Shown here: one piece after another, positions 34,194 to 63,658 of the stretch
How positions within the stretch are numbered: the first letter of the stretch is position 1
How the letters are laid out: every line of letters starts with the position of its first letter
Assembly (NCBI GenBank): GCA_030263375.1
Contig: SZOV01000003.1
Location: 1 to 64,000, forward strand
Length of the DNA: 64,000 bases
Direction of reading: 5' to 3'
Origin: Deltaproteobacteria bacterium PRO3
Lineage (GTDB): Bacteria > UBA10199 > DSSB01
The notes under the pieces: generated by a model
Database searches by the model: none
Told to the model about the DNA's origin: nothing
What the model saw: the letters and a program-made list of their open reading frames with translations, nothing else
Translations under genes and position numbers: made by a program

Positions 34194-34207
34194 ATGATCT
34201 AGATCAT
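34194..34207 (+). promoter_or_regulatory. FNR/DNR-type operator of the porin gene, distal site
   Basis: A perfect 14-base palindrome ATGATCTAGATCAT. Fifteen bases after its TGATCTAGATCA core comes GGGGATCATTGGG, the same arrangement as at the tatA and 63585 promoters. It lies 58-71 bases before the porin ATG. Confidence 0.75.
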
Positions 34208-34216
34208 CCCCACCGG

Positions 34217-34230
34217 ATGATGGGGATCAT
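34217..34230 (+). promoter_or_regulatory. Second TGAT-N4-ATCA palindrome of the porin promoter
   Basis: ATGAT-GGGG-ATCAT, centred 23 bases downstream of the distal site and 41 bases before the porin ATG. Its right half coincides with the GGGG-ATCAT element, so it may be a second operator or simply the conserved downstream element. Confidence 0.55.
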
Positions 34231-34264
34231 TGGGCCTGGCGCGGATCCGGGCTAAGGTGGGAGC

Positions 34265-35542
34265 ATGAAAAAATCCTTCTATCCCATATTGCGAAGCCTG
34301 ATCCTCATCTCCGCCCTCGCCTGGCCCTTGGGCCTTCGGGCCGAGCCTGCCGCGGGCAAACCCGAGCCCAAGCTGTGGCCCGATCAAGTGAAGGTCGGCG
34401 GCGAGTTCCGCACCCGCGTCGAGCTGAGGACCAACGAAGACCTCAACAGCGCCGTACCGGACAACGACGTCTTCGTCCTGCTGCGCACCCGCGTCTACCT
34501 CGACCTGAATCCCACGAGCTACGTCCGGCTCTTCGCGATGTTCCAGGACTCCGAGACCCTGGGCCAAAACGCCACCTCCATCTTCAAGGTGCCGGACCGG
34601 CGCAAGCTCTACCAAGCCTTCCTCTACCTGAAAAATGACGCGCCACTGGTCACCAGCCTCAAGATGGGCCGCCAAGAGTTGATCTACGGCGACGAGCGTT
34701 TGATCGGCGCCTTCAACTGGAGCAATCTCGGCCGCAGCTTCGACGGCGCCGTCGTGCGCCTGGAGAACGCGCATTTTTGGCTCGACCTCTTCGGCACCCG
34801 CATCCATCCGGCGGGCAAGGAGAACCAATTCGCGGGGGCCTACGGGCATTGGAAGGGCTTTCCGCAGGGCGAGCTGGAGGCCTACGCCCTCTACCTCCAC
34901 GGCTCCAAGTCGGGCCTCAACGGAGGCAGCCTGAGCATCGTCACGATCGGCTCCCGCCTAAAAGGCAAATTCAAGAAGAACTACGACTACGGCTTCGAAG
35001 GCGCTTATCAGACCGGGACCTCCGGCGGCAGCACGGTCAGCGCCTTCGCCACGCACGTTCGCTTCGGCTACACCTTCCCCCTCGGCTTCAAGCCGCGGCT
35101 GGGCCTCGAGTACAACTTCGCCTCGGGCGACGAGAACCCCGGCACGGGCAAGGTCACGACCTTCAACAACCTGTTCCCGACCAACCACGACAAGTACGGC
35201 TATATGGACCTCTTCTCGTGGAAGAACCTCCACGACATCCGCTTCAGCTTCGACACCCAGCCCCTCGAGTGGTTCAAGACCAAGCTCGACTACCACGCCT
35301 TCTTCCTGCCCGACCCCGCCAACGGGGCCTTCCTGGCCTCGGGCGTGCAATGGCGGGCGGGTGCGCCGGGGGCGGGGCACTTCGCGGGCCAGGAGCTCGA
35401 CCTCCTCTTCACCTTCAAGCCCTGGAAATACTTCGACGCGCTGGTGGGCTACTCGGTCTTCTTCCCCGGGACCTTCTTTTCGGACACGGGGCCCTCGGAC
35501 ACCTCGCACTTCTTCTACACGCAGTTCGCTTTCCGGTATTGA
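34265..35542 (+). CDS. Outer-membrane porin, alginate-export family
   Basis: This 425-residue protein has a signal peptide (SFYPILRSLILISALAWPLGLRA). A beta-barrel pattern follows of alternating hydrophobic residues with repeated aromatic strands: VGGEFRTRVELRTNED, LGRSFDGAVVRLENAHFW, FKPRLGLEYNFASGDEN. It ends in a C-terminal phenylalanine/tyrosine strand (FFYTQFAFRY), the BamA signal. The GDERLIG/GRQELIYG segment is typical of alginate_exp-domain proteins. Its promoter carries two regulon palindromes, so it probably passes nitrate or nitrite, not alginate; this is inferred from regulation. AAGGTGGG precedes the ATG. Confidence 0.88.
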   Translation: MKKSFYPILRSLILISALAWPLGLRAEPAAGKPEPKLWPDQVKVGGEFRTRVELRTNEDLNSAVPDNDVFVLLRTRVYLDLNPTSYVRLFAMFQDSETLGQNATSIFKVPDRRKLYQAFLYLKNDAPLVTSLKMGRQELIYGDERLIGAFNWSNLGRSFDGAVVRLENAHFWLDLFGTRIHPAGKENQFAGAYGHWKGFPQGELEAYALYLHGSKSGLNGGSLSIVTIGSRLKGKFKKNYDYGFEGAYQTGTSGGSTVSAFATHVRFGYTFPLGFKPRLGLEYNFASGDENPGTGKVTTFNNLFPTNHDKYGYMDLFSWKNLHDIRFSFDTQPLEWFKTKLDYHAFFLPDPANGAFLASGVQWRAGAPGAGHFAGQELDLLFTFKPWKYFDALVGYSVFFPGTFFSDTGPSDTSHFFYTQFAFRY

Positions 35543-35600
35543 AATGGGAGGAGGCCGTGAGCGGGGGCTCGCGGTCTAAAAGCGGTGATTTGCCGTAGGC

Positions 35601-35996
35601 TTATTTGGGATCGTCGTAGACGAGGGCGTGGACCTTCAGCTCGGGAAAGGCCTTGGTCAGGTCGGCGATCAGGGCCGCCTTCGAGCCGGCCCGCTCCCAG
35701 ACGAAGCCCATCGACTTCTGCGTGGCCGAGATCTTGATCGTGGCCGCATCGACGCTCGGTCGCGCACTCAGCCACTGCGTCAGCCCGTCGACGGTCGCCT
35801 TGGGCAGGGGCCCGACGATCTTGAAGACGGCGAACTCCAGACGCGCGGGATCGGCCTTCACCTTTTGAACCGCCTCGTAGGAATACACCGCCGAGCGGTC
35901 GTCCTCATGGCAGAGGCCGCAGGGCCGCGCGGCGCGCGGCGCCAGCGTCAGCCCCAGGGCCAGGAAGATCGCGAAGGACCAACCGCTTAATTTCAT
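35601..35996 (-). CDS. Small periplasmic CxxCH protein with HMA-like fold
   Basis: This 131-residue protein has a signal peptide (SGWSFAIFLALGLTLAPRAARP), and CGLCH follows at once, a possible single c-type haem or metal site. The remaining 85 residues alternate strand-helix-strand (LEFAVFKIVGPLP, TVDGLTQWLS, ATIKISATQKSMGFVW, KAALIADLTKAFPELKVHALVY) like a heavy-metal-associated ferredoxin fold, but without its CxxC. The ATG overlaps the nirK stop (ATGA), so it is translated with nirK. It could be a copper chaperone or an electron-transfer partner for NirK; no close family was recognised. Confidence 0.7.
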   Translation of the reverse strand: MKLSGWSFAIFLALGLTLAPRAARPCGLCHEDDRSAVYSYEAVQKVKADPARLEFAVFKIVGPLPKATVDGLTQWLSARPSVDAATIKISATQKSMGFVWERAGSKAALIADLTKAFPELKVHALVYDDPK

Positions 35997-37426
35997 TTCG
36001 TGGCCTCCTTCAGGTAGGCGAGGAGCTGGTCCAGCTCCTCGTTCGTCAAGGGGACCTTGGGCATCTGAGTCTTGTACTCCGCCTTCAGCTGGATCGCGAC
36101 GGGATCCTCCTTGGTCATCGTGACGGGGTCGAGGATGTATTTTCGAAGCCAGGCCTCGTCGCGGCGGGCGAAGATGCCCTTCAGGTCGGGACCGGTCATC
36201 TTGCCCTTGCCGATGCTGTGGCAGGTGTAACAGGTCTTGGTCTTGAACAGCTTGGCCCCGGGCATGTCGGCCAGGCCGGTGGCGGCCGGCGGCGCCGCGG
36301 CCTCGGCGGCCGGGCTGGCGGCGGGGGCCGTCTCCTTCGCGGGAGGCGGCGCGGCAGGCTTGGGCGCCGGCTCTTCGGGAAGACCGGTCTTGCCCTCGGT
36401 GGCGTCGACCGCCCCCAAGGCCCCGTGATGGGCGTCGGCGAACTCGTGGTCCACCAAGACGTACTTCCCGGCCTCGGGGATCACGAACTCGACGATGGCG
36501 CCGTTGGAGGCCCCAAGCAGGATGGTCTGGAGGCCGCGGAATTGGTTCGCCGGATTTCCGTCCAGCCAGACCTTGTCGAAGATGGTGCCGATCACGTGAA
36601 AGCTCGAGGTGTCATCGGGGCCGGCGTTGAGAAAGAAGATCCGCACCCGCTCGCCGGGCCGCGCCTTCAGGCCCTCGGTGAGGTGGCGGTTCACCCTCCC
36701 GTTGAAGGTGACGTAGGTCGGCTGCTTCTTCTCCACCTTGTCCATGTCGATCTCGTAGACGCCGTCGGCGCCGGGCTTGTCCTGCAGGTAGAACTCGCTC
36801 TGCACCACGGCGTACTCGCGGTCCACTTTGCCGGGCCAGCCGCCCTTCGGGTCGACGATCACCATGCCGTACATGCCGGCGGCCAAGTGCTGCAGGACCA
36901 TCGGCGTGGCGCAGTGGTACATGAAGACGCCGGGGTAGTTGGCGGTCCACTCGAAGGTCAGCGTCTGGCCGGGATCGATCGAGCGGTACTTGTCTTGCGG
37001 CGAGACCATGGCGGAGTGGAAATCGATGGAATGCGGCATCGGCGGCACGACCTGCACGGTCTCGGTGCTGCGGTTGGTGAGGGTGAACTTGACCCGGTCG
37101 CCCTGCCGAACGCGGATGGTAGGCCCGGGGATATCGTCGCCGAAGGTCCAGCCGTGGAACTTAACGCCGCTGTCCAGCTCGATCACCTTGTGCGTGACGT
37201 CGAGGCGGACCTCCTTGACCGGCGAGGCGTCGATCCTCGGCACCTCGGGTAGCTTCGCAACTCCGGGGCCGGAGAAGAATTTATCCCCCTTCGGGAGCGT
37301 GTCCCCGACCTGGGACGGAGGGGCGCCGTAGACGTCGCCGTATTTGGGTCCGATCTCGGCGGGTCCGGTGCAGGAGAGGTTCCAGAGCGTTGCGAGGGGC
37401 ATGAGGAGAAAGGCGCTGCGTTTCAT
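35993..37426 (-). CDS. nirK: Copper nitrite reductase with C-terminal cytochrome c domain
   Basis: This 477-residue protein has a lipobox ending at C19. Two cupredoxin domains hold every expected ligand. Type 1 copper: H132, C172, H180, M185. Type 2 copper: H137, H171, H327. Catalytic residues: D135 and H277. After an Ala/Pro-rich linker (about 350-385), a cytochrome c domain has CYTCH (C399, C402, H403). It reduces nitrite to NO in the periplasm; the fused haem should deliver electrons to the type 1 site. The start at 37426 has AAGGAGG in front; the long upstream frame is not coding. Fusions of this kind are known in Ralstonia and Pseudoalteromonas. Confidence 0.95.
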   Translation of the reverse strand: MKRSAFLLMPLATLWNLSCTGPAEIGPKYGDVYGAPPSQVGDTLPKGDKFFSGPGVAKLPEVPRIDASPVKEVRLDVTHKVIELDSGVKFHGWTFGDDIPGPTIRVRQGDRVKFTLTNRSTETVQVVPPMPHSIDFHSAMVSPQDKYRSIDPGQTLTFEWTANYPGVFMYHCATPMVLQHLAAGMYGMVIVDPKGGWPGKVDREYAVVQSEFYLQDKPGADGVYEIDMDKVEKKQPTYVTFNGRVNRHLTEGLKARPGERVRIFFLNAGPDDTSSFHVIGTIFDKVWLDGNPANQFRGLQTILLGASNGAIVEFVIPEAGKYVLVDHEFADAHHGALGAVDATEGKTGLPEEPAPKPAAPPPAKETAPAASPAAEAAAPPAATGLADMPGAKLFKTKTCYTCHSIGKGKMTGPDLKGIFARRDEAWLRKYILDPVTMTKEDPVAIQLKAEYKTQMPKVPLTNEELDQLLAYLKEATK

Positions 37427-37437
37427 AGTCCTCCTTT

Positions 37438-37662
37438 TTATTCGGGTGCTTTCCACCCTTGGGCCAGCTTCACCAACTCCTTGGCGATGGCGACGTGGGC
37501 GACCTCTTCCCGGGCGATGCGGCGGAGCATCTCGCAGGCCTCCGCGTCGTCGCAGTCCTCGGCCAACTGGAGGTAGGCGGCGGCCGCCTCTTCTTCCAGG
37601 GCCAGGATGGTCTGGAACTCCTTGAGGATCGCCTGACCCCGGGTTTTTTCGGTTTCGCTCAT
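37438..37662 (-). CDS. Half-length ferritin-like (rubrerythrin-type) protein
   Basis: This 74-residue protein is two helices with LALEEEAAAAYLQLAEDC and REEVAHVAIAKELVKLA, an E...EExxH pair that forms half a di-iron four-helix bundle. Two copies would have to dimerise to bind metal. The start ATG overlaps the stop of the preceding 72-residue gene (ATGA), and nirK begins 11 bases after its stop. Within the nirK operon it may protect against iron or nitrosative stress; that role is inferred. Confidence 0.72.
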   Translation of the reverse strand: MSETEKTRGQAILKEFQTILALEEEAAAAYLQLAEDCDDAEACEMLRRIAREEVAHVAIAKELVKLAQGWKAPE

Positions 37663-37877
37663 CGTCGCAGCCTCGACACGATGGCATCGATCATGTCCTC
37701 GTGCCGGAAGGTATCCCCGGAGAGCCTCTCCAGGAGCCGGCGGATCTTCGCTTGCTGTCCCGTACTGAATCCCGAGAAGTCGTAGCGCTTCACCTCGGCT
37801 AAATTCGACACCGCGAACTCCTCGAGTTTTTTCAAGGCCTCCAAGGCGGTCAAGATGGTCTCGCGGGCCACGCTCAT
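37659..37877 (-). CDS. Small helical protein, first gene of the nirK operon
   Basis: This 72-residue unrecognised protein is predominantly helical, with no cysteines and no signal peptide: ARETILTALEALKKLEEFAVSN, YDFSGFSTGQQAKIRRLLERL and a charged FRHEDMIDAIVSRLRR tail. AAGGAG precedes the ATG. Its stop overlaps the start of the half-ferritin gene. It is the first gene after the 37919-37944 palindrome, so it should be induced together with nirK. Confidence 0.65.
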   Translation of the reverse strand: MSVARETILTALEALKKLEEFAVSNLAEVKRYDFSGFSTGQQAKIRRLLERLSGDTFRHEDMIDAIVSRLRR

Positions 37878-37918
37878 GCATTTCTCCTTAAAGAAATGGT
37901 AACGGTTTCCCGCAAAGC

Positions 37919-37944
37919 CCCGATATGATCTGAATCATATCGGG
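37919..37944. promoter_or_regulatory. Shared FNR/DNR-type operator between the nirK operon and nnrS
   Basis: Arms CCCGATATGAT and ATCATATCGGG (11 bases each) surround CTGA, giving the core TGATCTGAATCA at 37926-37937. It is centred 45 bases before the nnrS ATG and 54 before the first gene of the nirK operon. A TATTAGATAAT on the nnrS side and TTACCAT on the nirK side sit where -10 elements would be expected from class II activation. Confidence 0.8.
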
Positions 37945-37976
37945 AACCACCTAACGCCTATTAGATAATAAGGACT

Positions 37977-39233
37977 ATGAACGAAAAATCCATAAAAAAC
38001 CTGTTCCTGGAACCCTACCGGCTCTTTTTCGCCGGCGGCTCCCTCTACGCGGTCCTGGCCGTGGCCCTCTGGTTCACCTGGCTCCACCTGCTGGACCACC
38101 AGATTTCCTGGTTCGACTTCCGCGTGGGACCGGCGCAGTACCACTCCCACGTCATGCTCTTCGGGGTGATGGGCTTCTATGTCTTCGGCTTCATCCTCAC
38201 CGCCTTCCCGCGCTTCGTGGGGCAGCCCCATCCCTCGCCCCGCGCCGTGGCGGCCTGGTTTCTGGGCCTGGCGGGGGGCCAAGCGGCTTTCTTCCTCGGG
38301 GCCACCCGCTCGCCTAAGTGGATGATCCTGGCAGGCGTCCTGGAAGGGCTGAGCTACTTGAGCCTGCTGTTCTTCCTCGGCCGGCTCTACCTGCGCTCCG
38401 GGAAGTGGCGCGAGGACAAGCAGCCGCGCTTCCTGCTGCTCGCCCTCGGCTTCGGGACCCTCGGCCTCCTCCTCTCCTATGTCTATTACGCGGCCGACGG
38501 CAGCTTCACCTTCTACACCCTCAGCATCGAGTTCGGCACCTACGGCTTCCTCTTCCTCCTAGTCGTCGGGATCACCTACCGCATCGTCCCCTTCTTCGCG
38601 GGGCGGGTGATCCAGGGCTATGAAGGCCGGCGCGGCGCCCACACCCTGGCGATCGTGACGGCGCTCATCCTGCTGCGCATCCTCCTCGTCACGCTTTGGG
38701 CCGACGGCCCGCGCCAGCACTACGCCTCCTGGGCGATCAACCTCGCCCTGCTGGCGGTCTTGGTGACGGAGTGGCTGCGCTGGCGGCCCTGGCAGGCCAA
38801 GGAGACGCCGATCCTCTTCGTCCTCTTCCTTGGGCTCTTCTGGATCTTGGTCTTTTTGGGATTCTCTGGCTACGAGTTGGCCTATCACCTGACGCATCGC
38901 CAGGCGGGCGTCTACCCGGTCCTGCGGACGCCGGCCCTGCACGCCCTCTACATCGGGGCCTTCGGGACGCTGGTCCTGGCGATCAGCACCCGCGTGGTAC
39001 GCGGCCACGGCGGCGCGCCGATCGTGGCGGACCGCTTCACCCTGGCCGCCCTGCTCCTGATGCAGCTCGCGGCCCTCTGGCGGGTCTTCGTGCCGGTCTT
39101 CCTCGAGGGGACGGGCAGCCTCTGGCTGAGAAATTATTGGGCGGGGCTCCTGTGGTGCGCGGCCTTTGGGGTTTGGGCGCTGCGCTATCTCCCCTTCCTG
39201 TTCCGACCCAAGCCGCCCGAGGCCGCCGGCTGA
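37977..39233 (+). CDS. nnrS: NnrS-family membrane haem-copper protein
   Basis: This 418-residue protein has about twelve membrane helices. The family opening YRLFFAGGSLYAVLAVALWF and the histidine-bearing YHSHVMLFGVMGFYVFGFILTAFPRF are diagnostic for NnrS. Further conserved histidines lie in later helices (ELAYHLTHRQ, PALHALYIGAFG, VVRGHGG). In Rhodobacter and Vibrio, NnrS is induced by NO and relieves nitrosative stress. It is divergent from the nirK operon across one shared operator and convergent with moaE, with seven bases between the stops. Confidence 0.92.
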   Translation: MNEKSIKNLFLEPYRLFFAGGSLYAVLAVALWFTWLHLLDHQISWFDFRVGPAQYHSHVMLFGVMGFYVFGFILTAFPRFVGQPHPSPRAVAAWFLGLAGGQAAFFLGATRSPKWMILAGVLEGLSYLSLLFFLGRLYLRSGKWREDKQPRFLLLALGFGTLGLLLSYVYYAADGSFTFYTLSIEFGTYGFLFLLVVGITYRIVPFFAGRVIQGYEGRRGAHTLAIVTALILLRILLVTLWADGPRQHYASWAINLALLAVLVTEWLRWRPWQAKETPILFVLFLGLFWILVFLGFSGYELAYHLTHRQAGVYPVLRTPALHALYIGAFGTLVLAISTRVVRGHGGAPIVADRFTLAALLLMQLAALWRVFVPVFLEGTGSLWLRNYWAGLLWCAAFGVWALRYLPFLFRPKPPEAAG

Positions 39234-39240
39234 GGCCGCC

Positions 39241-39657
39241 TCAATGATGGTGGCAGGCGACCCACTCCGAGCCCTCGGGATAATGCTCGCGCTTCCAGAC
39301 CGGGGCGCGGCGCTTGAACTCCTCGATGATGTAGGCACAGGCCTCCAGGGCCTCGCGGCGGTGGGCGGCGGAGACGGCCAGGACGATCCCCGTCTCGCCG
39401 ATCTCGAGGCGACCGACCCGTTGGATCAGGGCGGCCTTGTAAAAGCTCCATCGTTCCTTCGCCTCGGCGAAGATGCGGCGGAGTTCGGCGTGGAAGAGCC
39501 GCTCGTAGACTTCATACTCCAGCGCCAGGACCTGCCGGCCCTCGTTCTGTTCGCGGATATTTCCCTCGAAGAGGGCCACGGCGCCGCAGGAAGGATGTCG
39601 CACCTCCTGGAGGGCCTCGCCGCTGTCGACGGCTTCTTGGATGAGTCTTATCAGCAT
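39241..39657 (-). CDS. moaE: Molybdopterin synthase large subunit
   Basis: This 138-residue protein has the MoaE features HPSCGAVALFEGNIREQNEG, LALEYEVYERL, RVGRLEIGETGIVLAVSAAHR, AYIIEEFKRRAPVWKRE and the terminal EWVACHHH. With MoaD it inserts sulfur into cyclic pyranopterin monophosphate. It is the last gene of the Moco operon. The start at 39657 is eight bases after the moaD stop; the longer open frame upstream runs antisense to structure and is not coding. Confidence 0.95.
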   Translation of the reverse strand: MLIRLIQEAVDSGEALQEVRHPSCGAVALFEGNIREQNEGRQVLALEYEVYERLFHAELRRIFAEAKERWSFYKAALIQRVGRLEIGETGIVLAVSAAHRREALEACAYIIEEFKRRAPVWKREHYPEGSEWVACHHH

Positions 39658-39665
39658 AAAGCCTT

Positions 39666-39911
39666 TCAGCCTCCGGCTACGGGCGGGATCAGGGCGATCT
39701 CGTCGCCGTGCCGGGGACGGTAATTTGCCGGAACGTATTCCTCGCCGACGGCGAAGCGGAGAAATTTCCCCCATTCCAGCGGACCGAGCGTCGGCTCGAG
39801 GACGCGCCGGGCGAGGTCGAGGACGCTCTCGCCCTCCTGCAGCTCGCACTCCGCCTCGCCCCGCCGCATGCGGTCACGCAACACCGAAAAGAACAAGAGA
39901 CGCACGCTCAT
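39666..39911 (-). CDS. moaD: Molybdopterin synthase sulfur carrier subunit
   Basis: This 81-residue ubiquitin-fold protein begins SVRLLFFSVLRDR and ends in the obligatory diglycine (IPPVAGG), which is thiocarboxylated before sulfur transfer to MoaE. YVPANYRPRHGDEIALIPPV is typical. GAGGAGG stands directly before the ATG, inside the end of moeA; the moeA stop is one base away. Confidence 0.95.
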   Translation of the reverse strand: MSVRLLFFSVLRDRMRRGEAECELQEGESVLDLARRVLEPTLGPLEWGKFLRFAVGEEYVPANYRPRHGDEIALIPPVAGG

Positions 39912-39912
39912 C

Positions 39913-41151
39913 TCAACCTCCTCTCCATGCCTGAAAGATCGAAGGCAGCAGATGCGCCTCCACAAGGTCGCCCGCCGCCCAGGACTCCCCTTCCTCCGGA
40001 AGCACGGCCAGGGCGTTGGCCGCGGCGAAACTGCGCATCAGGTGGGAGCCCTGTCCTTCCAGGATATGCAGGCTGGGCGCCGCCCCGCCGAGATCCGCGC
40101 GGGCCTTCAAGAAGTGGCGCAGGCCGGGCTTCTTCTTCAGGCCTTGCGCAAGCGGCAGGCGCAGCGCGGGAAGGAAGAGCTCGCGCGCGCCCAAAGCGCG
40201 CAGCAGGGCCGGGCGGACGTACTCGTAGAAACACACCAGGGCACTGGCGGGGTTTCCCGGCAGGCCGAAGAGACATTTCCCTTCCTCCTTTTTTCCGAAG
40301 AAGACGGGTTTGCCGGGCTTCTGCCGGACCTTCCAAAAGACCTCTCGCACCCCGGCGTCGGCCGCCGCCTCCTTGACGAAATCGAAGTCACCCACCGACA
40401 CGCCGCCCGTCACGATCAAGAAGTCCGCGCGCTGCAGGCCCTCCGCGAGGGCCCACTGGAGGTCTTCCCGCCGGTCGCGGCAGCGCTCGGCGAAGGCAGG
40501 CACAAGCCCCAGCTCTTGGAGGGCCGCGTTCAGGCCGAAGGAGTTGGACTCGTAGATCTGGGCCGGCTCCAAGGGGACCCCCGGCGGCACCAGCTCCGAA
40601 CCCGTGACCAAGATCCCGACGCGGGGCGCGGCGTGCACTTCGACCCGCTCGAAGCCGAAGCCGGCCAGCAAGGCCAGCGCGGCCGCCTGCAGGGGCCGCC
40701 CGGGACCGAGGATCTCGGCGCCGATCTCCAACTCCTCGCCGCGGCGCCGGATGTTCTCTCCCCCCGAAACCGGCCGGCTCAGGCGAATCGCCTCGCCCGC
40801 GCGCTCGACGTCCTCCTGCTTGACTACCGCGTCCGCGCCCTCCGGAATTTTGGCCCCGGTGAAGATCCGCATCGCCTCGCCGGGCTTCAGCGGGCTTTTC
40901 AGACAGATCCCCGCAGGAACGGTGGCCGCGACGAAGAGGGACACCGGCGCCCCGGGTCCCGCCGCCGCGGTGTCGGCGGCGCGCAGCGCATAGCCGTCCA
41001 TCGCGGAATTGTCGAAGACGGGACTCGGGATCGAGGCGTCTATGGGTTTCGTCAGGACCCTCCCCCAGGCCTCGGCGAGCGCCAGCGCTTGGCCGGGAAA
41101 GGGGCTCACTGCCTCGACGATTCTCGCTTGGGCCTCAGGGACGGAAATCAT
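39913..41151 (-). CDS. moeA: Molybdopterin molybdenumtransferase
   Basis: This 412-residue protein has domain features in order: PSPVFDNSAMDGYAL, GAKIPEGADAVVKQEDVE, PRVGILVTGSEL, IVTGGVSVGDFDFVKEA, FGLPGNPASALVCFYEYVRP and a C-terminal beta domain. It ligates molybdate to molybdopterin-AMP. A GTG/ATG extension upstream was rejected because homology starts at ISVPEAQARIVEA. It is preceded by the 41171 hemerythrin gene and followed by moaD, all with tiny gaps. Confidence 0.95.
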   Translation of the reverse strand: MISVPEAQARIVEAVSPFPGQALALAEAWGRVLTKPIDASIPSPVFDNSAMDGYALRAADTAAAGPGAPVSLFVAATVPAGICLKSPLKPGEAMRIFTGAKIPEGADAVVKQEDVERAGEAIRLSRPVSGGENIRRRGEELEIGAEILGPGRPLQAAALALLAGFGFERVEVHAAPRVGILVTGSELVPPGVPLEPAQIYESNSFGLNAALQELGLVPAFAERCRDRREDLQWALAEGLQRADFLIVTGGVSVGDFDFVKEAAADAGVREVFWKVRQKPGKPVFFGKKEEGKCLFGLPGNPASALVCFYEYVRPALLRALGARELFLPALRLPLAQGLKKKPGLRHFLKARADLGGAAPSLHILEGQGSHLMRSFAAANALAVLPEEGESWAAGDLVEAHLLPSIFQAWRGG

Positions 41152-41170
41152 GCCTCGCTCCGATCGCGGT

Positions 41171-41647
41171 TCACCCGCAACTGCAACACTCGTGGGCCGG
41201 GGCCGAGGCCCCCGCCTGCACCTCGGCAAGGATCCTCGCGCGAACCTCCGGCGCGACCATGCGGTCGATCGCGGGATACAGGACCTGCTCTTCCTTCACG
41301 TTGTGCTGTCCCAGCACCGAGAGCAGCCTCGCCTCCTCCGCATCGCTGTTCGGGTCCTGGACGCGGACCTTTTGGTGGATCTCTTCCAGGCACTGGTGGA
41401 TCTGCCGGTGCTCCATCCGCATCACGGCGGTCGGCCCCACGTCCCGCATGCCGGTGGCCTGTTCGAAGGCGGGAAACAGCAGCTCCTCCTCCCAGACGAT
41501 GTGCCGCTGCAGGCCGGTGAGGAATTCCTTGAAGGCCCGCTTGGCCGCCGGAAAATCCGATCGCTTGCCTGTTTGGAACTGTCCGAACAAGGCGTCGAGG
41601 CGATCGTGATCGCGTTCGAAAAATTGGGTGATGTTGCGTTCCTCCAT
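41171..41647 (-). CDS. Hemerythrin-domain protein with cysteine-rich tail
   Basis: This 158-residue four-helix protein has the hemerythrin ligand set: ERDHDRLDALF, HIVWEEELLFPAFE, MEHRQIHQCLEEIH and HNVKEEQVLYPAID. It ends in HECCSCG, an unusual cysteine cluster. Such proteins bind O2 or NO at a di-iron site; some repair iron-sulfur clusters after nitrosative damage. Here it is buried in the Moco operon (AAGGAG before the ATG). It could protect MoaA or Nar clusters. Confidence 0.88.
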   Translation of the reverse strand: MEERNITQFFERDHDRLDALFGQFQTGKRSDFPAAKRAFKEFLTGLQRHIVWEEELLFPAFEQATGMRDVGPTAVMRMEHRQIHQCLEEIHQKVRVQDPNSDAEEARLLSVLGQHNVKEEQVLYPAIDRMVAPEVRARILAEVQAGASAPAHECCSCG

Positions 41648-41658
41648 GACGGGCTCCT

Positions 41659-43316: not shown

Positions 43317-43330
43317 CGCTCTTTCCTTTC

Positions 43331-44885: not shown

Positions 44886-44925
44886 GTCTCGTATCCTTTC
44901 CAATTCAGCCCCTCGCCGTCGAGGG

Positions 44926-45006: not shown

Positions 45007-45011
45007 TTGTT

Positions 45012-45188: not shown

Positions 45189-45236
45189 ACTTTTATCCTC
45201 TTGAGATATTTATAGAGGAAACGAGCGCAGCCCCCT

Positions 45237-45271
45237 ATGACCCCTGGCAGCAGGGCATATGATCTGGATCA
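45237..45271 (-). promoter_or_regulatory. FNR/DNR-type promoter of the tatA-Moco operon
   Basis: Core TGATCCAGATCA on the - strand (45271-45260), followed 15 bases later by GGGGTCATAGGGG beginning at 45244. The same core, spacing and GGGGTCAT occur upstream of the 63585 gene. The core centre is 77 bases before the tatA start. Confidence 0.78.
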
Positions 45272-52629: not shown

Positions 52630-52636
52630 AAATCCT

Positions 52637-53260: not shown

Positions 53261-53265
53261 GGTGC

Positions 53266-54654: not shown

Positions 54655-54663
54655 AAAGCTCCT

Positions 54664-55926: not shown

Positions 55927-55960
55927 ATCCTCTCTCCATTTCCATCCAAAAATTTGTCCC

Positions 55961-56650
55961 CTAGCCCGCCCGCCGAATCTTCTTCCGGTCGTAGTTCCAA
56001 ACCACGATCTGGTAGGAACGCCACAGGTACGAGACCGGCACGACCAGGAAGTGGATCAGGCGGGTGAAGGGCAAAATGGCGACGATCAAAAAGGCGGTGA
56101 AGACGTGGACCTTGACCAGGGTCGGCATCCCCGCGACGAACTCGACGTTGGGGTTGAGCGTGAAGAGGCCCCGCAGATAAGGCACCAGGGCGGAGGCGTA
56201 CCAGCTCGAGCCCCAGCGGTAGCCGATCGCCACCGCCACGCCCGAGGCGACCTGCACCAGCAGGACCGCCAGCACCAGGACGTCGACCTTCGAGGTCACC
56301 TGGCGGATCCGCGGGTCGCTGATCCGCCGGACGATCAGCAGGACGATGCCGACCAGGGCCAGCAGGCCGAAGGTCAGACCCGTGACCTCGAGGATCAGCA
56401 GCCGGATCGGAACGGAGTTCCAGAGCAGGACCTCGCGCGGGAAGAGCAGCCCAATCAGGTGCCCGAGCAGGACGGCGAGGATGCCGTAGTGCCATGGCAC
56501 CGAGCCCCAGAACAGCTTCTTGCTCTCCAGGAATTCGGAAGAAAGGCTGGTGAACTCGTGGCGCCGGAAGATGTAGCGCCAGACGGAGACGACCACTTCC
56601 AACGCGATCGCGACATAAGGGAAGACGACGAAGAGCAGGTAATTTTTCAT
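55961..56650 (-). CDS. narI: Respiratory nitrate reductase gamma subunit
   Basis: This 229-residue membrane cytochrome b has five helices. Haem ligands H54, H64, H182 and H200 occupy the places of E. coli H56, H66, H187 and H205. It oxidises quinol on the outer side and passes electrons to NarH. The start overlaps the narJ stop (ATGA). Confidence 0.95.
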   Translation of the reverse strand: MKNYLLFVVFPYVAIALEVVVSVWRYIFRRHEFTSLSSEFLESKKLFWGSVPWHYGILAVLLGHLIGLLFPREVLLWNSVPIRLLILEVTGLTFGLLALVGIVLLIVRRISDPRIRQVTSKVDVLVLAVLLVQVASGVAVAIGYRWGSSWYASALVPYLRGLFTLNPNVEFVAGMPTLVKVHVFTAFLIVAILPFTRLIHFLVVPVSYLWRSYQIVVWNYDRKKIRRAG

Positions 56651-57204
56651 GACAGGGCTCCTTCCCGGCGCTCGGGCCCGCAGGCCTCGGCGGGAAAATC
56701 CTTGCGCAGGACGCCTTGCAGCGCCTGCAGGGCCCCGCCGTAGACGTTCCCCTTCTCCTTGAAACCCGGCAGCATCTTCTCGAGGGCGGGCTCCACGAAG
56801 ACGCGGCTCAACTCGCCGGCCAACTCGCTCGCCTGAATCTTGGCGAGAAGCCGCAGCAGGTTGGGGAGGTGGTCGGCCAGCTCGGTCCCGCAGCGGTTCT
56901 CCGCCTTTTCATGCTCGCGGTTGAGATGGACCAGCAGCTCGCCGCGCTTGTAGTCCTCGCCGAATAGGACGTAGCCGACGTCCAGGTAGCAGACCGGGTG
57001 GATCTCGAAGGTGTGGGTGTAGAGCTCCTGGAGCCGCTGTTCGGAGGATTCGCGGACGAAGTCGCGGAGCGGGGCGAGGGCCTCGCCCGCTTCCGGATAG
57101 GCGGCCGCGACCTCGGTCAAGGCCGTCTCGATCTCGGCGCGGTCGCCCGTCCAGGGATAGCTGAGGATGCGGGCGAAGCTTTCATAGGGGTGTCTCTGGG
57201 CCAT
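56647..57204 (-). CDS. narJ: Nitrate reductase assembly chaperone NarJ
   Basis: This 185-residue helical protein of the NarJ/TorD family has ESFARILSYPWTGDRAEI at the start, the conserved YLDVGYVLFGEDYKRGELLVHLN, and DHLPNLLRLLAKI. It binds the NarG N-terminus until cofactor and iron-sulfur insertion is complete. It begins two bases after narH. Confidence 0.92.
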   Translation of the reverse strand: MAQRHPYESFARILSYPWTGDRAEIETALTEVAAAYPEAGEALAPLRDFVRESSEQRLQELYTHTFEIHPVCYLDVGYVLFGEDYKRGELLVHLNREHEKAENRCGTELADHLPNLLRLLAKIQASELAGELSRVFVEPALEKMLPGFKEKGNVYGGALQALQGVLRKDFPAEACGPERREGALS

Positions 57205-57206
57205 GA

Positions 57207-58697
57207 CTATAACCCCCTCCCCACGGCCATCCGGAAGCCGAAGCCGCCGGTGCCCTTCTTCTCGAACTCGGTGTCGAGCATCACGACCGCCTCCTCGCGA
57301 TGGCTGGGCGGGATGACGAAACGCTCCTCAAAATTGGCCAGCGAGGTCAGCCTGTAGATCGCCTCCGCTTCCTCGGGACTGGTGCCCGTCTCCTTGAGGG
57401 CCTTCTGCACGGCCTCGGCCCCGAGGTCGCCGACCGTCTCCTCGCGGCGGTAGAGGCGCACCGCCATCATCTTCTTCAAGACCTCGCGGATCTGGCCCTC
57501 GTTGCCGGCCGTGAAGAGGGAGGCCAGGTATTGGATGGGCAGCCGCGCCTGCTCGATGTCGGTGAAAAGCCCCTCGGTGAGGCTCTCGTAGACCCCCTCC
57601 TCGCTCATCCCCATGATCGGGAGCAGCGGCGGGACATAGAAGAGCATGGGCAGGGTGCGATATTCGGGGTGGAGGGGCAACGCGAGGCCCCATTCCTTCA
57701 CGAAGCGGTAGACCGGCGAGCGCTGGGCGTACTCGATGACCGAATCGTGGATGCCGTTCTTCCGCGCCTCGGCGATCACCTTGGGATCCTTGGGATCGAG
57801 AATAATCTCGCGGGAGAGATCCAGCAGCTTCGACTCGTCGGCCGAGGCGAATTGGTGGATCAGGTCCGCGTCGTAGAGCATCATCCCCAGGTAGCGGATG
57901 CGTCCGACGCAGGAGTGCATGCAGGCGGGCGCCTGCCCCGTCTCGAGGCGCGGGTAGCAGAGGATGCATTTTTCCGACTTGCCCGTGGACCAGTTGTAAT
58001 AGGTCTTCTTGTAGGGGCAGGCGGTGACGCACATGCGCCAGGCGCGGCACTTCTTCTGGTTGATCAAGACCACGCCGTCCTCGCCCCGCTTGTAGATGGC
58101 CCCCGAGGGACAGGCCGCGAGGCAGGCGGGGTTGAGGCAGTGGTTGCAGATCCGCGGCAGGTAGAACATGACCAGCTTCTCGACCTGGAAGAGGGCCTCC
58201 TGTTCGGCCTGCGAAAGGTTCTTGAAGTTGGGGTCTTTGCGCGCGTAATCCGGACTGCCGCTCAGGTCGTCGTCCCAGTTGGGACCGGCCTTGATCTCCA
58301 TGAACTTCCCGGTCAAGAGCGAGACGGGCCGCGCCACCGGCTGGGTATCGCCTTCCGGCGAGTTGAACAGGTCCTCGTAGCGATAGGTCCAGGGCTCGTA
58401 GTAGTCGTCGATGGTCGGCAGGTTGGGGTTGTGGAAGATGTTCTTGAAGGCACGCAGCTTCCCCGCGCCTTTCAGCTCGATGGAGTTCCCCTTCTTGACC
58501 CAGCCGCCCTTGTAGTCCTCTTGGTTTTCCCAGGCGGTGGGATAGCCGGTGCCGGGCTTGGTCTCGACGTTGTTCCACCACATATATTCCGCGCCCTTGC
58601 GGTCCGTCCAAACGTTCTTGCAGGCGATGGAGCAGGTGTGGCAGCCGATGCATTTGTCCAGGTGAAATACGACCGATACTTGTGCGCGAACATCCAT
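57207..58697 (-). CDS. narH: Respiratory nitrate reductase beta subunit
   Basis: This 496-residue protein has four cysteine groups: CIGCHTCSIAC at the start, CNHCLNPACLAAC, CRAWRMCVTAC (the tryptophan in place of the second cysteine marks the [3Fe-4S] cluster) and CILCYPRL...CMHSC. A NarH C-terminal domain follows. It links NarI haems to NarG. The ATG at 58697 lies seven bases after the narG stop; upstream in-frame codons would run into narG. Confidence 0.96.
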   Translation of the reverse strand: MDVRAQVSVVFHLDKCIGCHTCSIACKNVWTDRKGAEYMWWNNVETKPGTGYPTAWENQEDYKGGWVKKGNSIELKGAGKLRAFKNIFHNPNLPTIDDYYEPWTYRYEDLFNSPEGDTQPVARPVSLLTGKFMEIKAGPNWDDDLSGSPDYARKDPNFKNLSQAEQEALFQVEKLVMFYLPRICNHCLNPACLAACPSGAIYKRGEDGVVLINQKKCRAWRMCVTACPYKKTYYNWSTGKSEKCILCYPRLETGQAPACMHSCVGRIRYLGMMLYDADLIHQFASADESKLLDLSREIILDPKDPKVIAEARKNGIHDSVIEYAQRSPVYRFVKEWGLALPLHPEYRTLPMLFYVPPLLPIMGMSEEGVYESLTEGLFTDIEQARLPIQYLASLFTAGNEGQIREVLKKMMAVRLYRREETVGDLGAEAVQKALKETGTSPEEAEAIYRLTSLANFEERFVIPPSHREEAVVMLDTEFEKKGTGGFGFRMAVGRGL

Positions 58698-58704
58698 AAT
58701 AACC

Positions 58705-61700
58705 CTACCAAACCAGGTCTTCGAGCTTGCGGACCATGACATAGGTGTCGCGGTTGCAGCCGGTGGGACCCCAATAATTGAAGTGATAGGTGAACTGGGC
58801 ATAGCCGCCGACCATCAGGTTCGGCTTCAGCCGCACCCGGGTCAGGCTGTTATGACCGCCCGCCCGCTTGTACTCGCGCAGCGGCGAGCGCGGCACCGAG
58901 TAGGTGCGCTCCGGCGAGTGGTAGATGATGCACACGCCCTTCGGGATGCGCGCGCTCACGTTGGCGCGGGTCACCACCACGCCGTGGTCGTTGTGCACCT
59001 CCACGTAATCGTTGTCCTCGAGGCCCAGCTCCTTCGCGTCCTCCTCGCCGATCCAGAAGGGCTCGGTGCCGCGGGACAGGGTGAGCATGCGCAGGGTGTC
59101 GCCGTAGGTGGAGTGGATGTGCCACTTGCCGTGCGGGGTCAGGTAATTCAGGATCTTCGCCTTGCCCTGCTCCAGGCTCTTCTTCAGATCGCCGTAGGCC
59201 TCGGGGCGCGGCGAGGGCTTGTAGACCGGGAGGTTTTCGCCGAAGGCGATGTAGGCCGGGTGGTCCAGGTAGTAGCTGAGCCGGCCGGTGAGGGTGCGCC
59301 AGGGCACCTTCCGCTCGACGTTGTAGGTGTAGGCGGAATAGGCGCGGCCCCCGTCCATCAGTCCGGACCAGATCGGGCTGTTCAAGAGGCGGCGCGGCTG
59401 CGCGACTAGGTCGGAGAACTCGAGCCGCACGTCGCGGCTGTCCTCAGCCAAGTCGGTAAGCTTGAGGCCCACCCGCTCCTGGATGTTCTGGTAGGCGCGG
59501 TAGGCCAACTCGCCGTTGGTCTCGGGGGCAAAGAGCAGGACCAAGTTCGCCGCCTCGACGTCCCGCTCCAGGGAGGGATAGACCTTGCCGCCCCAGGCCT
59601 GGGTGGGATGGGTCTTCAGGACCTCTTCGTAGAGATCCTCCACCGGATACTTGACGCCGTGGGCGCCCAGCCCCGCCCGGACTAGAGGCCCGAGGGAGAT
59701 GAATTTTTGGTAGATCTGCGTGTAGTCGCGCTCGACCACCGCGAACTTATACATGGTCTTGCCGGGAATCGGCTCGCACTCGCCCTTCCCCCAGTCCTTG
59801 ATCTCCTTTTGCGCCAGCTCGTCGGGGCTGTCGTGGCTTAAGGGCTGGGTGACGATATCCTTGATCGGGTCCGGCAGGTGCTTCTTGGCCAACTCGCTCG
59901 TGACCTTGGCGATGCCTTTGAAAATGTCCCAATCGCTGCGCGACTCCCAGACCGGCGGGATCGCCGCGTTGAGCGGGTGGATATAGGAATGCATGTCGGT
60001 CGAGTTGAGGTCGCTCTTCTCGTACCAGGAGGCCGCCGGCAGGACGATGTCGGAGTAGAGCGCCGAGGTGTCCATCCGGAAGTTGAGGTCGACGATGAGG
60101 TCCATCTTCCCGAGCGGGGCGTTCTTGTGCCACTCCACCTCGCGCACCCGCCCCTCGGCGACTTCCTCCGCGATGGCATTGGTATGGGTGCCCAGGTAGT
60201 GCTTGAGGAAGTATTCGTGGCCCTTGGCGCTGGACATGATCGCGTTGCCGCGCCAGATGTACCAGACGCGGGGCCAGCTGGCCTCGTGGTCGATGTCCTC
60301 GATCGCGTGGCGCAGTTTTTTACCCTTCAACTGCTCGAGGACGTAGGCCGAGATCTCCTCGGGGCCCTTCTTCCCGGCCCGCTCGGCGTCGCGACACAGC
60401 TCCAGATTGCTCTTGGTGTACTGCGGGTAGAAGGGCAGCCAGCCGCAGCGCACCGCCTGCACGTTGAAGTCCGCGGTGTGGCCCTGGGTGAAGGTGTTGT
60501 CCGGGCACTTGTGGTATTCCTTGAAATCGCCCTCATAGCGCCACTGGTCGGAATGCAGGTAGTGCCAGGAAGGCCCGTTCTGCAGCCGCGAGGGCCCGTG
60601 CCAGTCCTTGGCGAAGGCGATGGCGGCCCAGGATCCGACCGGGGCCAGCTTTTCCTGGCCGACGTAGTGGTTGAGCCCGCCCCCGTTGACGCCGATGCAG
60701 CCGCAGAGCATCAGGGCGTTGATCCCCGCGCGGTAGATCAGGTTGTTGTGGTACCAGTGGTTGATCCCGGCGCCGATGATGATCGAGCACTTGCCCTGGG
60801 TCTTCGCCGCGGTCTGGGCCCAGCTGCGGGCGAATTGCAGCACCGTATTCTTCCCGATGCCGGTGTACTGTTCCTGCCAGGCGGGCGTGTAGGCGCCGAT
60901 CTCGTCGTAGTTTTTCGGATAGTCCCCTTCCAGGCCCCGCGAGACGCCGTACTGGCCGTTCATCAGGTCGAAGACGGTGGTCACCACGATGGGACCGTTT
61001 TCGCCCTGCAAGATCTTGGCGGGGACGCCGCGGATCGGTGTCTTGTCCTCGCCGAATTCATGGAAGGCGACTTGCGCCACCTGGTCCTGGCGGCCCAGCA
61101 GGCTGAGTAGCGGGTCGTAGGCCGCGTCGTTTTCGCCGTCTTTCGCCTCGAGGTTCCAATCGCCTGGTTTTTTTTGCCAACGGTGCCCAACGCTGCCCTT
61201 GGGCATGAAGGGCTCCGAGGTCTTCTCGTCGAGGACCAGGAATTTCCAGTCGCCAAGCTCGGCGTCGCGGTATTTCGCCAGGCGGTTCGCGCGGAGGAAG
61301 GCGCCCGGCTTGTAATGATCGCCCTCCTTCACCAGCTCGACCAAAAAAGGCAGGTCGCTGAACTTCTTCCCATAGTCGACGAAGTAAGGCGTGCTGCGGT
61401 CTTGGTAGTACTCCTGCAGGATCACGTGGCCGACCGACATCCAGAAGGCCCCGTCCTGACCGGGGTTGACGGGGATCCACTGGTCCGCGTACTTCGAGAC
61501 CTGGCTGAAGTCGGGCGAGAAGACCACCATCTTGCTGCCGTTGTGCCGCGCCTCGGCGGCGAAGTGGCAGTCGGGGGTCCGGGTCATGTTGAGGTTGGCG
61601 CCCATGACGGCCAAGAACTTCGAGTTGTACCAGTCGGCGCTCTCGGCGACGTCGGTCTGCTCGCCGAACATTTCCGGCGAGGCCGGCGGGAGGTCGCAAT

Positions 61701-62310
61701 ACCAGTCGTAGAAGCTCAGGTTCACCCCACCCATCAGCTGGAGGAAGCGCGAGCCGGAGGCGTAGCTCAGCATCGACATCGCGGGGATCGGCGAGAAGCC
61801 GGTGATGCGGTCCGGCCCGTATTTTTTCACGGTGTAGATATTGGCCGCCGCGATGATCTCCTGCGCCTCGTCCCAGGCCAGGCGGCGGAAGCCGCCCTTC
61901 CCCCGCGCCCGCTGGAAGCGCGCCCGCGCCTCGGGGTTCGCCATAATCGATTCCCAGGCCTCGACGGGATCGCTGAACTTCGCCTTGGCCTCCTTCCACA
62001 GGTCGATCAGGGCGCCGCGGATGTAGGGGTACTTGACGCGGATGGGGCTGTATAAATACCAGGAAAAGGAGATCCCGCGCTGGCAGCCGCGCGGCTCGTA
62101 GGCGGGCAGCGACTTCTCGAGCGAGGGGTAGTCCAGGGCCTGCATCTCCCAGGTGACGATGCCTTCCTTGACGTGGATGTTCCAAGAGCAGCCGCCGGTG
62201 CAGTTGACGCCGTGGGTGCTGCGCACCACCTTGTCGTGCTGCCAGCGATTCCGGTAGAACTCCTCCCAGTCGCGGGTCTGCGGCGAAATCAAATCCTTGA
62301 TCCAACTCAT
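58705..62310 (-). CDS. narG: Respiratory nitrate reductase alpha subunit
   Basis: This 1201-residue cytoplasmic molybdoenzyme (no Tat signal) has the FS0 ligands H33, C37, C41 and about C76 ([11 protein letters not shown] and EPRGCQRG). [17 protein letters not shown] carries the molybdenum-ligand aspartate. [41 protein letters not shown] and a MGD-binding C-terminal domain follow. It reduces nitrate to nitrite with bis-MGD. It is collinear with E. coli NarG except for a slightly shorter C-terminus. The start overlaps the narC stop (ATGA). Confidence 0.98.
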
Positions 62311-63170
62311 GACAAGCCTCCATGACTGGGTTTCGCGGTCTTTTTCCTGCGTTTTCGCCAGGACAGATCCATGAGGCCCAGGAACAGCACGCAGCCTCCG
62401 ACGCCCAGGAAGACGAATTTTTTCTGAAAGCCGGTGGACTCCTGGCCCTGGCGGTCGGCTTGGTAGAGGAAGGCCTTCAAGGCGAAGGCCTCTTCGCCGG
62501 TCAGGGGCCTCGGCACGTAGATCTCGCGCATGATATTGAAGCCGGTCTTGCGCAAGGCCTTGGAGAGGCCCGCGTCTTCATAGCGCGAATAGACCTGGGT
62601 CAGGTCGAGGGCCAGGCTCCCTCCGCCCAGGGGGCCCAGCGAGCCGACGCTGTGGCAGGAGATGCAGGCGGGCCCGCCGTTGGCCAGGGGACGCGAGCCC
62701 AGGAACAGCTCCTGGCCGAGCTGGATATCCTGCGGGGTCGCGGCCGTGGCGGGCTTGTCGTCGATCGGCTTTTCCACCGGACCTCCCTGCTTAATGAAGG
62801 CCAGCAGCTGCTTCACCTCGTCGGGCGAGAGGTCGTGGTCGGGCATCTTCTTGCGCTTGAATTTCTCGAAGAGCTGGGTCGCGACGGGATCTCCGGCGCT
62901 GATCATGGACTGGGAGGATTGGATCATCTTGATGAGCCAGTCTTCCGGGCGCCGCTCGCCGATCCCCTTCAAATCCGGCCCCACGTCGTCGCCGCCGCCG
63001 ACGGTGTGGCAGCTGCTGCATTTTTTCTCGTAGTATTCGGCGGGATCGAAGGCCGCGCGCAGCGTCGCCGCGTACAGGAGGGTCCCCAGGAATAAGGTCG
63101 CGAAGAGGAGCGAGATCCACCGATTGATCCTCTCGCACCGCAATAACGCTTCTCGATTCGAATCTTTCAC
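62307..63170 (-). CDS. narC: Membrane-anchored dihaem cytochrome c, NarC-like
   Basis: This 287-residue protein has an N-terminal anchor (about 16-36), a first haem site CSSCH at 51-55 with SAGDP...[10 protein letters not shown] supplying a methionine, a second at 169-173 (CISCH), and a C-terminal helix near 255-275. Thermus nar operons also begin with a dihaem narC that is needed for the nitrate reductase. The GTG at 63170 is chosen because GGAGG lies about nine bases upstream; the GTG at 63227 would bury that site. It is first in the operon after the 63241-63252 operator. Confidence 0.85.
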
Positions 63171-63222
63171 GTTTCGTTTCCTCCGGGAAAATCTAAGGCT
63201 TTTCCCGATTTTCAAAAATGCG

Positions 63223-63252
63223 CCCACTCATGCCCCGACATGACGGGGATCA
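63223..63252 (-). promoter_or_regulatory. FNR/DNR-type promoter of the nar-act operon
   Basis: Core TGATCCCCGTCA on the - strand (63252-63241), one mismatch from TGAT-N4-ATCA. After 15 bases comes GGGCGCATTTTTG, matching the GGGG(T)CATT element of the sister promoters. The core centre is 76 bases before the narC start and overlaps the 3' end of the 63585 gene. Confidence 0.65.
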
Positions 63253-63585
63253 TCCGATAAGGCCCTTGAACAGGGCTTCCAAACGGCTTTTGGAGATAAA
63301 AACGACCTCGCAATCCTCGGCCGCCACGCCGGTGCAACAAAAAGGCGAGCCGGAAAACACATGGGAAATGCCGAAGATCTTGCCTTGGGGGGCGGACCAG
63401 GATTCGGCGGCGCAGATCTCGCCGGCGCTGGACAGCTCCACCCGGCCGCTGCGGACTAAAAAAACGCCATAGGGCAGATGCCCTTCGTAAAAAAGCACCT
63501 GGCCGCGGTGAAAATTAAGCTGCTGGCCCTGCGCGAGGGCCTGATTCCATTGGGATTCGCTGAGCGAGGAAAAGTCCTTCTCCAT
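63250..63585 (-). CDS. Stand-alone cyclic-nucleotide-binding-like domain protein
   Basis: This 111-residue protein is a single cupin-like effector domain (FHRGQVLFYEGHLPYGVFLVRSGRVELSS, then GKIFGISHVFSGSPFCCTGVAAEDCEVVFISKSRLEALF). It has no helix-turn-helix. Four of its five cysteines (FCCTG, EDCE, EICA) could bind a redox ligand, since the PRAARS-type nucleotide signature is missing. It may modify the neighbouring Crp/Fnr protein. A near-perfect regulon operator precedes it, with a weak ribosome site. Confidence 0.75.
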   Translation of the reverse strand: MEKDFSSLSESQWNQALAQGQQLNFHRGQVLFYEGHLPYGVFLVRSGRVELSSAGEICAAESWSAPQGKIFGISHVFSGSPFCCTGVAAEDCEVVFISKSRLEALFKGLIG

Positions 63586-63620
63586 TGCGGAGAAGATAAA
63601 GGAAGGCGTTCAAGGCCCCA

Positions 63621-63658
63621 ATGACCCCGGACAGAGGGGGACCTGATCTAGATCAGGT
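63621..63658 (-). promoter_or_regulatory. FNR/DNR-type promoter of the 63585 gene
   Basis: ACCTGATCTAGATCAGGT at 63641-63658 is a perfect 18-base palindrome. Fifteen bases beyond the TGATCTAGATCA core on the - strand comes GGGGTCATTGGGG. It lies between the Crp/Fnr stop and the next gene, so the lone domain gene has its own regulated promoter. Confidence 0.8.

Follow-up and report, generated by a model that had tools for sequence, protein, structure and literature searches.

Which regulator acts on the promoters of the nitrate/nitrite island of Deltaproteobacteria bacterium PRO3, and what is the GC-rich element that recurs in them? The island lies in the first 64,000 nucleotides of contig SZOV01000003.1 (the window), for which an earlier note had described one promoter architecture repeated before several genes: a TGAT-N4-ATCA palindrome, followed in four cases after 15 bases by a GC-rich element near the -10 position. 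Five palindromes were found at the positions given there, four of them exact (34195, before a porin gene; 37926, between the nirK operon and nnrS; 45260, before tatA-Moco; 63644, before the gene at 63585) and one, before narC, with a single mismatch (63241; TGACGGGGATCA on the + strand). The 15-base distance was exact in the four promoters, and the same module was present in the porin, tatA, narC and 63585 promoters, which supports the idea of one repeated architecture. The extended core TGATC-N2-GATCA, which had been assigned to most of the palindromes, was detected in three of the five (34195, 45260 and 63644) and not at 37926 or 63241. We consider it probable (a probability of about 0.78) that an activator of the Crp/Fnr family acts on the porin, tatA-Moco, narC and 63585 promoters through tandem sites; the most likely candidate is the FNR-like protein whose gene lies at 63670-64386. 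On the best reading of the sequence they would be tandem FNR-type class II promoters, often leaderless, and a new clade-wide variant of a known promoter type. Sequence, spacing, conservation and neighbourhood are the features seen directly.

Read in the direction of transcription, the module consists of the palindrome (box 1), a gap of 10 bp (11 bp in the porin promoter), a 12-mer of the form TGNN-N4-NNCA (box 2), 23 bp and a -10 box (Table 1). All four -10 boxes lie exactly 23 bp past box 2; three conform to TANNNT and that of tatA is TATAAA. The GGGG of the GC-rich element is the N4 core of box 2, give or take a base, its TCA is the second half-site of box 2, and the bases after the element (TTGGGG in the 63585 promoter) occupy the -35 hexamer; TCATTGGGG is the box-2 half-site TCA followed by a degenerate -35. 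The centre of the element is hence not near -10, as had been supposed, but near -41.5, the -10 boxes being 23 bp downstream of it in four of four promoters. A Crp/Fnr palindrome in the class II position is expected near -41.5, 22 to 24 bp before the -10 box, and the distance of 23 bp in all four window promoters agrees with this. By the established geometry of FNR and CRP promoters, the weak box 2 is predicted to be centred at about -41.5 and the strong box 1 at about -63.5 (-64.5 in the porin promoter). The element of the porin promoter belongs to a second perfect palindrome (34218-34229), which the earlier note had missed; box 2 is perfect only there among the four window promoters, so that a full-consensus site at -41.5 is not a property of the group.

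Table 1. Positions of promoter elements and regulatory genes in the window
Feature	Position	Strand	Sequence	Remarks
Porin box 1, strong	34195..34206	+	TGATCTAGATCA	Predicted centre -64.5
Porin box 2	34218..34229	+	TGATGGGGATCA	11-bp gap, the same in G002; predicted centre -41.5
Porin -10 box	34253..34258	+	TAAGGT	23 bp past box 2; ATG 34265 follows after six bases; start predicted to be leaderless
nirK operon/nnrS divergent promoter, single strong box	37926..37937	both directions	TGATCTGAATCA	TGATCTGGATCA in G002
tatA-Moco box 1, strong	45260..45271	-	TGATCCAGATCA	Name tatA from the earlier note and by eye, without a family search
tatA box 2, weak	45238..45249	-	TGCCAGGGGTCA	10-bp gap; kept in G002; TGCCACGGGTCA in G001
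tatA -10 box	45209..45214	-	TATAAA	23 bp past box 2
narC box 1	63241..63252	-	TGATCCCCGTCA	One mismatch
narC box 2, weak	63219..63230	-	TGAGTGGGCGCA	10-bp gap; TGAGTCGGGTCA in G002
narC -10 box	63190..63195	-	TAGATT	23 bp past box 2; probable GTG start 63170 behind GGAGG
Small cNMP-domain protein, 111 amino acids, without helix-turn-helix (HTH)	63250..63585	-		Downstream of tandem promoter; adjoins regulator
63585-gene promoter (small cNMP-domain gene), box 1, strong	63644..63655	-	TGATCTAGATCA	
63585 promoter, box 2, weak	63622..63633	-	TGTCCGGGGTCA	10-bp gap
63585 promoter, -10 box	63593..63598	-	TATCTT	23 bp past box 2; seven bases, then ATG 63585; near-leaderless
FNR-like regulator gene, C-terminal part in window	63670..64000	-		Whole gene ~63670-64386 on the contig (C3), beyond the window end

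TGAT-N4-ATCA occurs nine times in the window, 25-fold more often than the 0.36 expected, and none of 100 shuffled sequences reached this number. A scan of the window for the module returned exactly the four promoters, at gaps of 10 to 11, and none at any other single gap from 0 to 30, while 60 first-order Markov random windows contained no module at gaps of 10 to 11. Across the whole genome (G000; 3.55 Mb, 198 contigs), TGAT-N4-ATCA was present at 70 places and TGATC-N2-GATCA at 19, 4 of them inside the 64-kb window. The genome scan proposed in the earlier note, for TGAT-N4-ATCA-N15-GGGGNCAT with up to 3 mismatches, returned 45 places (5 in the backwards control), among which only tatA and 63585 matched exactly, narC had 2 mismatches, and porin and 41 others had 3. 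A search for the gap-10 module with up to 2 mismatches, in which the porin promoter with its gap of 11 could not be returned, gave 4 places (none in the backwards control): 63585 and C27:11864 were exact and tatA and narC had 1 mismatch. The only other exact module of the genome, at C27:11864, is upstream of a Usp gene and directly behind a second Crp/Fnr gene. The order in this region (G000:C27:10400-13400) is a Crp/Fnr gene (C27:11237-11842), the exact tandem module immediately after it and then the Usp gene, and a similar layout was observed in G001.

Conservation of the spacing was examined in relatives. The search itself required the half-sites, so that finding them in a relative carries no weight, and only the spacing and the -10 box are taken as evidence. 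All four promoters were kept in G002, a member of the same genus, with gaps of 10, 10, 10 and 11 bp, the 23-bp distance and the -10 boxes TATCTT, TACATT, TATAAA and TACATT; the tatA promoter was also kept in G001. When 46 genomes of the same taxonomic class (class genomes) were searched with the gap left free (TGAT-N4-ATCA-N{0,30}-TGA-N6-TCA), the matches listed comprised 150 rows, or 135 distinct places, and a gap of 10 accounted for 39 of these 135, in 22 genomes, with five of the 46 (G024, G034, G039, G019 and G029) being represented in the count table and not among the matches listed. The backwards control yielded 5 matches in all. The next most frequent gap among the matches listed, 21 with 11 places, was considered as a second architecture and set aside: gaps divisible by three hold 59 of the 135 places, as coding sequence would give. 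With the gap fixed, pairs were detected in 26 of 46 class genomes and in 18 of 339 others (backwards control, 1 of 385). In other genomes, 42 loci surrounding regulator or MobA-like genes gave 86 strong-box readings; with at most 1 mismatch in box 2, a gap of 10 was seen in 27 readings and every other gap from 0 to 44 in at most 2, a pair of two strong boxes counting twice. Clustering at a gap of 10 places the two sites whole helical turns apart, as in tandem (class III) Crp/Fnr arrangements. Longer series of boxes were encountered as well. In the porin promoter of G002 (G002:C73:1-6500, ~3670), box 1 is preceded at 26 bp by a third strong box, which was not seen there in the window; one strong box in G008:C2:500-3500 has weaker boxes on both sides at 10-bp gaps, as if common to two divergent tandem promoters; and a triple series was also observed in one stretch outside the class (L213).

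The loci contained 67 distinct tandem sites, 30 of which were promoters with a single possible orientation. A TA exactly 23 bp past box 2 was present in 19 of these 30, the mean for other distances being 1.5 and the highest value 8. Outside the genus of PRO3 the figure was 12 of 23 promoters, with a mean of 1.2 elsewhere and a next-highest value of 5 (p = 2e-10). Outside the class, TA at 23 bp was found in 6 of 26 orientations and at any other distance in no more than 4, a count covering 20 stretches and not six further outside places. ATG occurred 35 or 36 bp past box 2 in 10 instances among the 30 promoters and at any other single distance in no more than 3; transcription would then be expected to start at the start codon or just before it. 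When orientation was set from the -10 box alone, in 31 promoters, 24 upstream boxes and 7 downstream boxes carried the canonical inner pair T..A, the inner pairs of box 2 being TA (7), CG, CA, CC and TC (4 each), GG and TG (3 each), GC (1) and AA (1). A constant box 2 of the form TGAC-N4-GTCA, suggested by the single-orientation set, was abandoned when this preference faded with orientation set by the -10 box. The GGGG also failed as a conserved signal: GGG lay in or next to the box-2 core in 1 of 23 promoters outside the genus, and CCCC stands in its place in G003, a family-level relative whose promoter for the 63585 orthologue has the second site TGCACCCCGTCA. Within the genus, the unspecific N4 of box 2 is filled with GC-rich sequence, the GGGG. 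Inverted repeats of the type CCCC..GGGG between the boxes, noticed by eye in the window promoters, were set aside as a possible further operator; they were not seen on reading the narC promoter of G027 and the promoter of the 63585 orthologue of G003.

The candidate regulator (matched over C3:63673-64383) contains a cNMP_binding domain (PF00027, 2.1e-25) and an HTH_Crp_2 domain (PF13545, 1.9e-18). In 15 aligned sequences, picked from the 50 matches listed, cysteines C11, C14, C23 and C113 (alignment numbering) were invariant in 15 of 15, a pattern corresponding to the N-terminal cluster plus internal cysteine of FNR, the oxygen-sensing [4Fe-4S] regulator. The best match of its profile in the PDB was 2gau, a Crp/Fnr regulator, followed by FNR-type regulators such as 5cvr (2.3e-33), which we take to be Aliivibrio fischeri FNR. 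The score against the NCBIfam Fnr model NF008365 was 101.3 bits, below the cut-off of 228, and by its sequence the protein is FNR-like and not Fnr proper. The recognition helix of FNR carries the motif E-x2-S-R. When the helix was placed by alignment to TVETISRLL of an FNR-type regulator, E200 and R204 were invariant and the serine position was I in 14 of 15 sequences and V in 1 of 15, so that the full motif is not present. This change may go with the missing leading T of the box: the base before TGAT was C in 16 and A in 13 of 30 promoters, the outer T of TTGAT not being favoured. The strict pair was present in 21 of 31 class genomes with a close regulator homologue and in 5 of 15 without one (E above 1e-50; p = 0.03), and a close homologue and a tandem pair occurred together, within 3 kb, in 6 of 38 class stretches (G009, G017, G026, G027, G032 and G035). 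Homologues of the small cNMP-domain protein lie beside the regulator in several class genomes and behind tandem pairs in G008, G017, G026 and G030; this HTH-less protein might modulate the regulator. Pfam families among 34 predicted proteins of at least 95 amino acids downstream of class pairs (47 orientations) were cytochrome c and molybdopterin oxidoreductase (4 each), cNMP_binding (3), ABC ATPase, Rrf2, COX2 and Usp (2 each), ApbE (1) and others, a list that is only a guide, since first open reading frames (ORFs) were picked mechanically and some sites lie inside long open frames.

These features suggest cooperative binding of a single FNR-like protein at the two sites, with activation from -41.5. 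At low oxygen, the [4Fe-4S] form would dimerise and first occupy the strong upstream site; the upstream dimer, two helical turns away on the same face of the DNA, would then help a second dimer onto the weak -41.5 site, in class II contact with RNA polymerase, and the dimer at -41.5 would activate RNA polymerase of the sigma70 type. With a weak proximal site, activation would require both dimers and rise steeply, and a good part of the promoters would have their transcription start on the start codon or one base ahead of it. The divergent promoter between the nirK operon and nnrS offers a comparison. It has -10-like hexamers in both directions (TAGATA, 37962-37967, +; TACCAT, 37901-37896, -), each 24 bp from the strong box, and no second box was seen on inspection of this promoter. 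Where the box at the class II position is strong, a partner is apparently dispensable, and this would fit an upstream box that compensates for a weak -41.5 site. A puzzling GC-rich element would in this way become part of a readable rule: strong box, 10 bp, weak box, 23 bp, -10 box and sometimes directly the start codon. Such a rule would allow respiration regulons to be predicted in a class whose named relatives are metagenome-assembled, and the promoters would provide a natural, repeated test case for two adjacent Crp/Fnr dimers at -63.5 and -41.5.

The proposed arrangement shares features with several known systems. FNR class II promoters of E. coli, Sphingopyxis and others have a palindrome of the TGAT-N4-ATCA type near -41.5, ~23 bp before the -10 box, and serve anaerobic respiration genes; most of the listed Sphingopyxis Fnr boxes are at -40.5 to -42.5 (PMC7713065, partial text). 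The promoters described here differ in that the -41.5 site is usually the weak one, paired with a strong site 22 bp upstream, and in that the outer T of TTGAT is not favoured. Two FNR dimers per promoter, one of them at -41.5, are known from the melR series and yfiD (PMC11264516, partial text). In E. coli, FNR at -41.5 combined with a second, upstream FNR can give activation at many positions of the latter and gives repression when the latter lies in the range from -85 to -95 (Barnard et al. 2003, cited after the available part of PMC11264516). Those promoters are artificial constructs or, in one gene, have the second site near -93.5 (same partial text), whereas the spacing of 22 bp described here is fixed and is repeated in natural promoters across the class. 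The HcpR, DNR and NnrR regulons also involve Crp/Fnr-family regulators of nitrogen-oxide genes and FNR-like palindromes, and HcpR of Desulfuromonas and Geobacter covers a nar operon as well (Rodionov et al. 2005, PMC1274295, partial text). In the available part of that source, however, tandem sites are mentioned for NorR and NsrR and not for FNR-like regulators, and the regulator here differs in having FNR-type cysteines. Within the open-access papers searched, in part available as partial text, no description of the fixed 22-bp arrangement was recognised, and the tandem FNR sites met with were in artificial constructs or in single genes only; subscription papers were mostly outside this search.

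Several points weigh against the tandem-site reading or limit it. The association of regulator and pair is modest, as five of the 15 class genomes without a close regulator homologue still have the strict pair; other members of the family may thus use the same layout. The genome of PRO3 itself has three HTH_Crp_2 (Crp/Fnr) genes, so that either box may be bound by another of these proteins. The strict gap-10 pair was absent from 20 of 46 class genomes, and the gap of the porin promoter is 11, not 10. The scan of the window is partly circular, its module having been derived from the very four promoters that it returned. Some loci were fetched for having gap-10 pairs, and the counts of -10 boxes and of box quality therefore do not test the gap. 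With regard to the -10 box, no TA was present at 23 bp in 11 of 23 promoters outside the genus, in a first, looser test on 47 orientations the peak was shared by 22 and 23 bp (6 + 6 TANNNT), and 37 of the 67 tandem sites had been left out since both of their orientations qualify. The set of 31 promoters, likewise, had dropped sites with TA at 23 bp on both sides.

The points concerning the regulator would also suit an arrangement in which a different paralogue of the Crp/Fnr family, or another factor with a similar half-site, binds box 2, and two signals, e.g. oxygen and nitric oxide (NO) or nitrate, are integrated. The three HTH_Crp_2 proteins and the strict pairs in genomes without a close homologue are in keeping with this, as are the dissimilarity of the two boxes (T..A as inner pair of box 2 in 7 of 31 promoters, of box 1 in 24 of 31) and the closeness of some box-2 forms (TGAC, GTCA) to the HcpR site TTGAC-N4-GTCAA of Geobacter and relatives (PMC1274295, partial text). 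We nevertheless regard a second protein at box 2 as unlikely, since box 2 is degenerate and not consistently different, with nine inner pairs in 31 promoters, and the boxes are alike where both are perfect, e.g. in the narC promoter of G027. It is quite improbable that box 2 is an operator for down-regulation, a weak site filled only at a high level of the regulator and then shutting a promoter that the upstream site activates in a class I-like manner. The order of a strong and a weak site suits filling at different concentrations, and for certain spacings a second FNR dimer can act as a repressor in E. coli (work on melR and yfiD; PMC11264516, partial text), but -41.5 is the canonical activating class II position of a Crp/Fnr dimer, as in the Sphingopyxis list (PMC7713065, partial text), and the only box of the nirK/nnrS promoter sits nearby, at -42.5 by the 24-bp distance. 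We give very little weight to the idea that only box 1 is bound and that chance or base composition, in the -35 region of a GC-rich genome, accounts for the GC-rich element: the retention of GGG in just 1 of 23 promoters outside the genus would agree with it, while the second boxes of class genomes gather at a single spacing when the gap is left free, as a compositional artefact would not. Of the two alternatives offered in the earlier note, a second regulator's site has held up, as a second Crp/Fnr-type site, and an unusual -10 box, considered here together with a site for an alternative sigma factor, is rejected as scarcely credible, nothing having been found for it beyond the original distance estimate, an ordinary -10 box occupying one fixed place 23 bp further downstream in the window, TA recurring there in relatives and GGGG being replaced by CCCC in G003.

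A stricter version of cooperative activation by the FNR-like protein can be imagined, which we put forward as a speculation with the odds well against it. Adjacent FNR-type dimers at the fixed 22-bp spacing would be required throughout the clade, the promoter firing only on dimer contact, the -41.5 site would be deliberately weak, and the small HTH-less cNMP protein might modulate the contact, e.g. through mixed dimers with the regulator.

The four remaining TGAT-N4-ATCA sites of the window (19123, 23553, 31186 and 43405), which like the -10 boxes at 23 bp are absent from the earlier note, each overlap an ORF of the mechanical list. Three of them were read for a -10 box at 23 bp, which was absent at 19123 and 43405 in both directions and at 31186 in the direction of the kinase. 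The site at 31186-31197, TGATTTATATCA, has AT-rich surroundings and lies ~200 bp before a histidine kinase gene (31391). Elsewhere in the genome, an identical 35-bp string is present on three contigs (C7, C13 and C40), within 80 bases of the contig end on two of them, which suggests a repeated element that breaks the assembly.

The nirK operon presents two further features. The copper nitrite reductase-like ORF at 35993-37687 (- strand) carries a cytochrome c domain at its C-terminus, and ~155 residues precede its match to the reductase; its score is below the curated NirK cut-off (221.9 versus 296.3 bits), and its start is uncertain because of a 250-bp overlap with the preceding ORF. Adjoining the promoter of the operon, a ferritin-like protein is encoded at 37438-37881 (- strand), weakly similar to encapsulin cargo of the EncB type (25 bits against a cut-off of 90).

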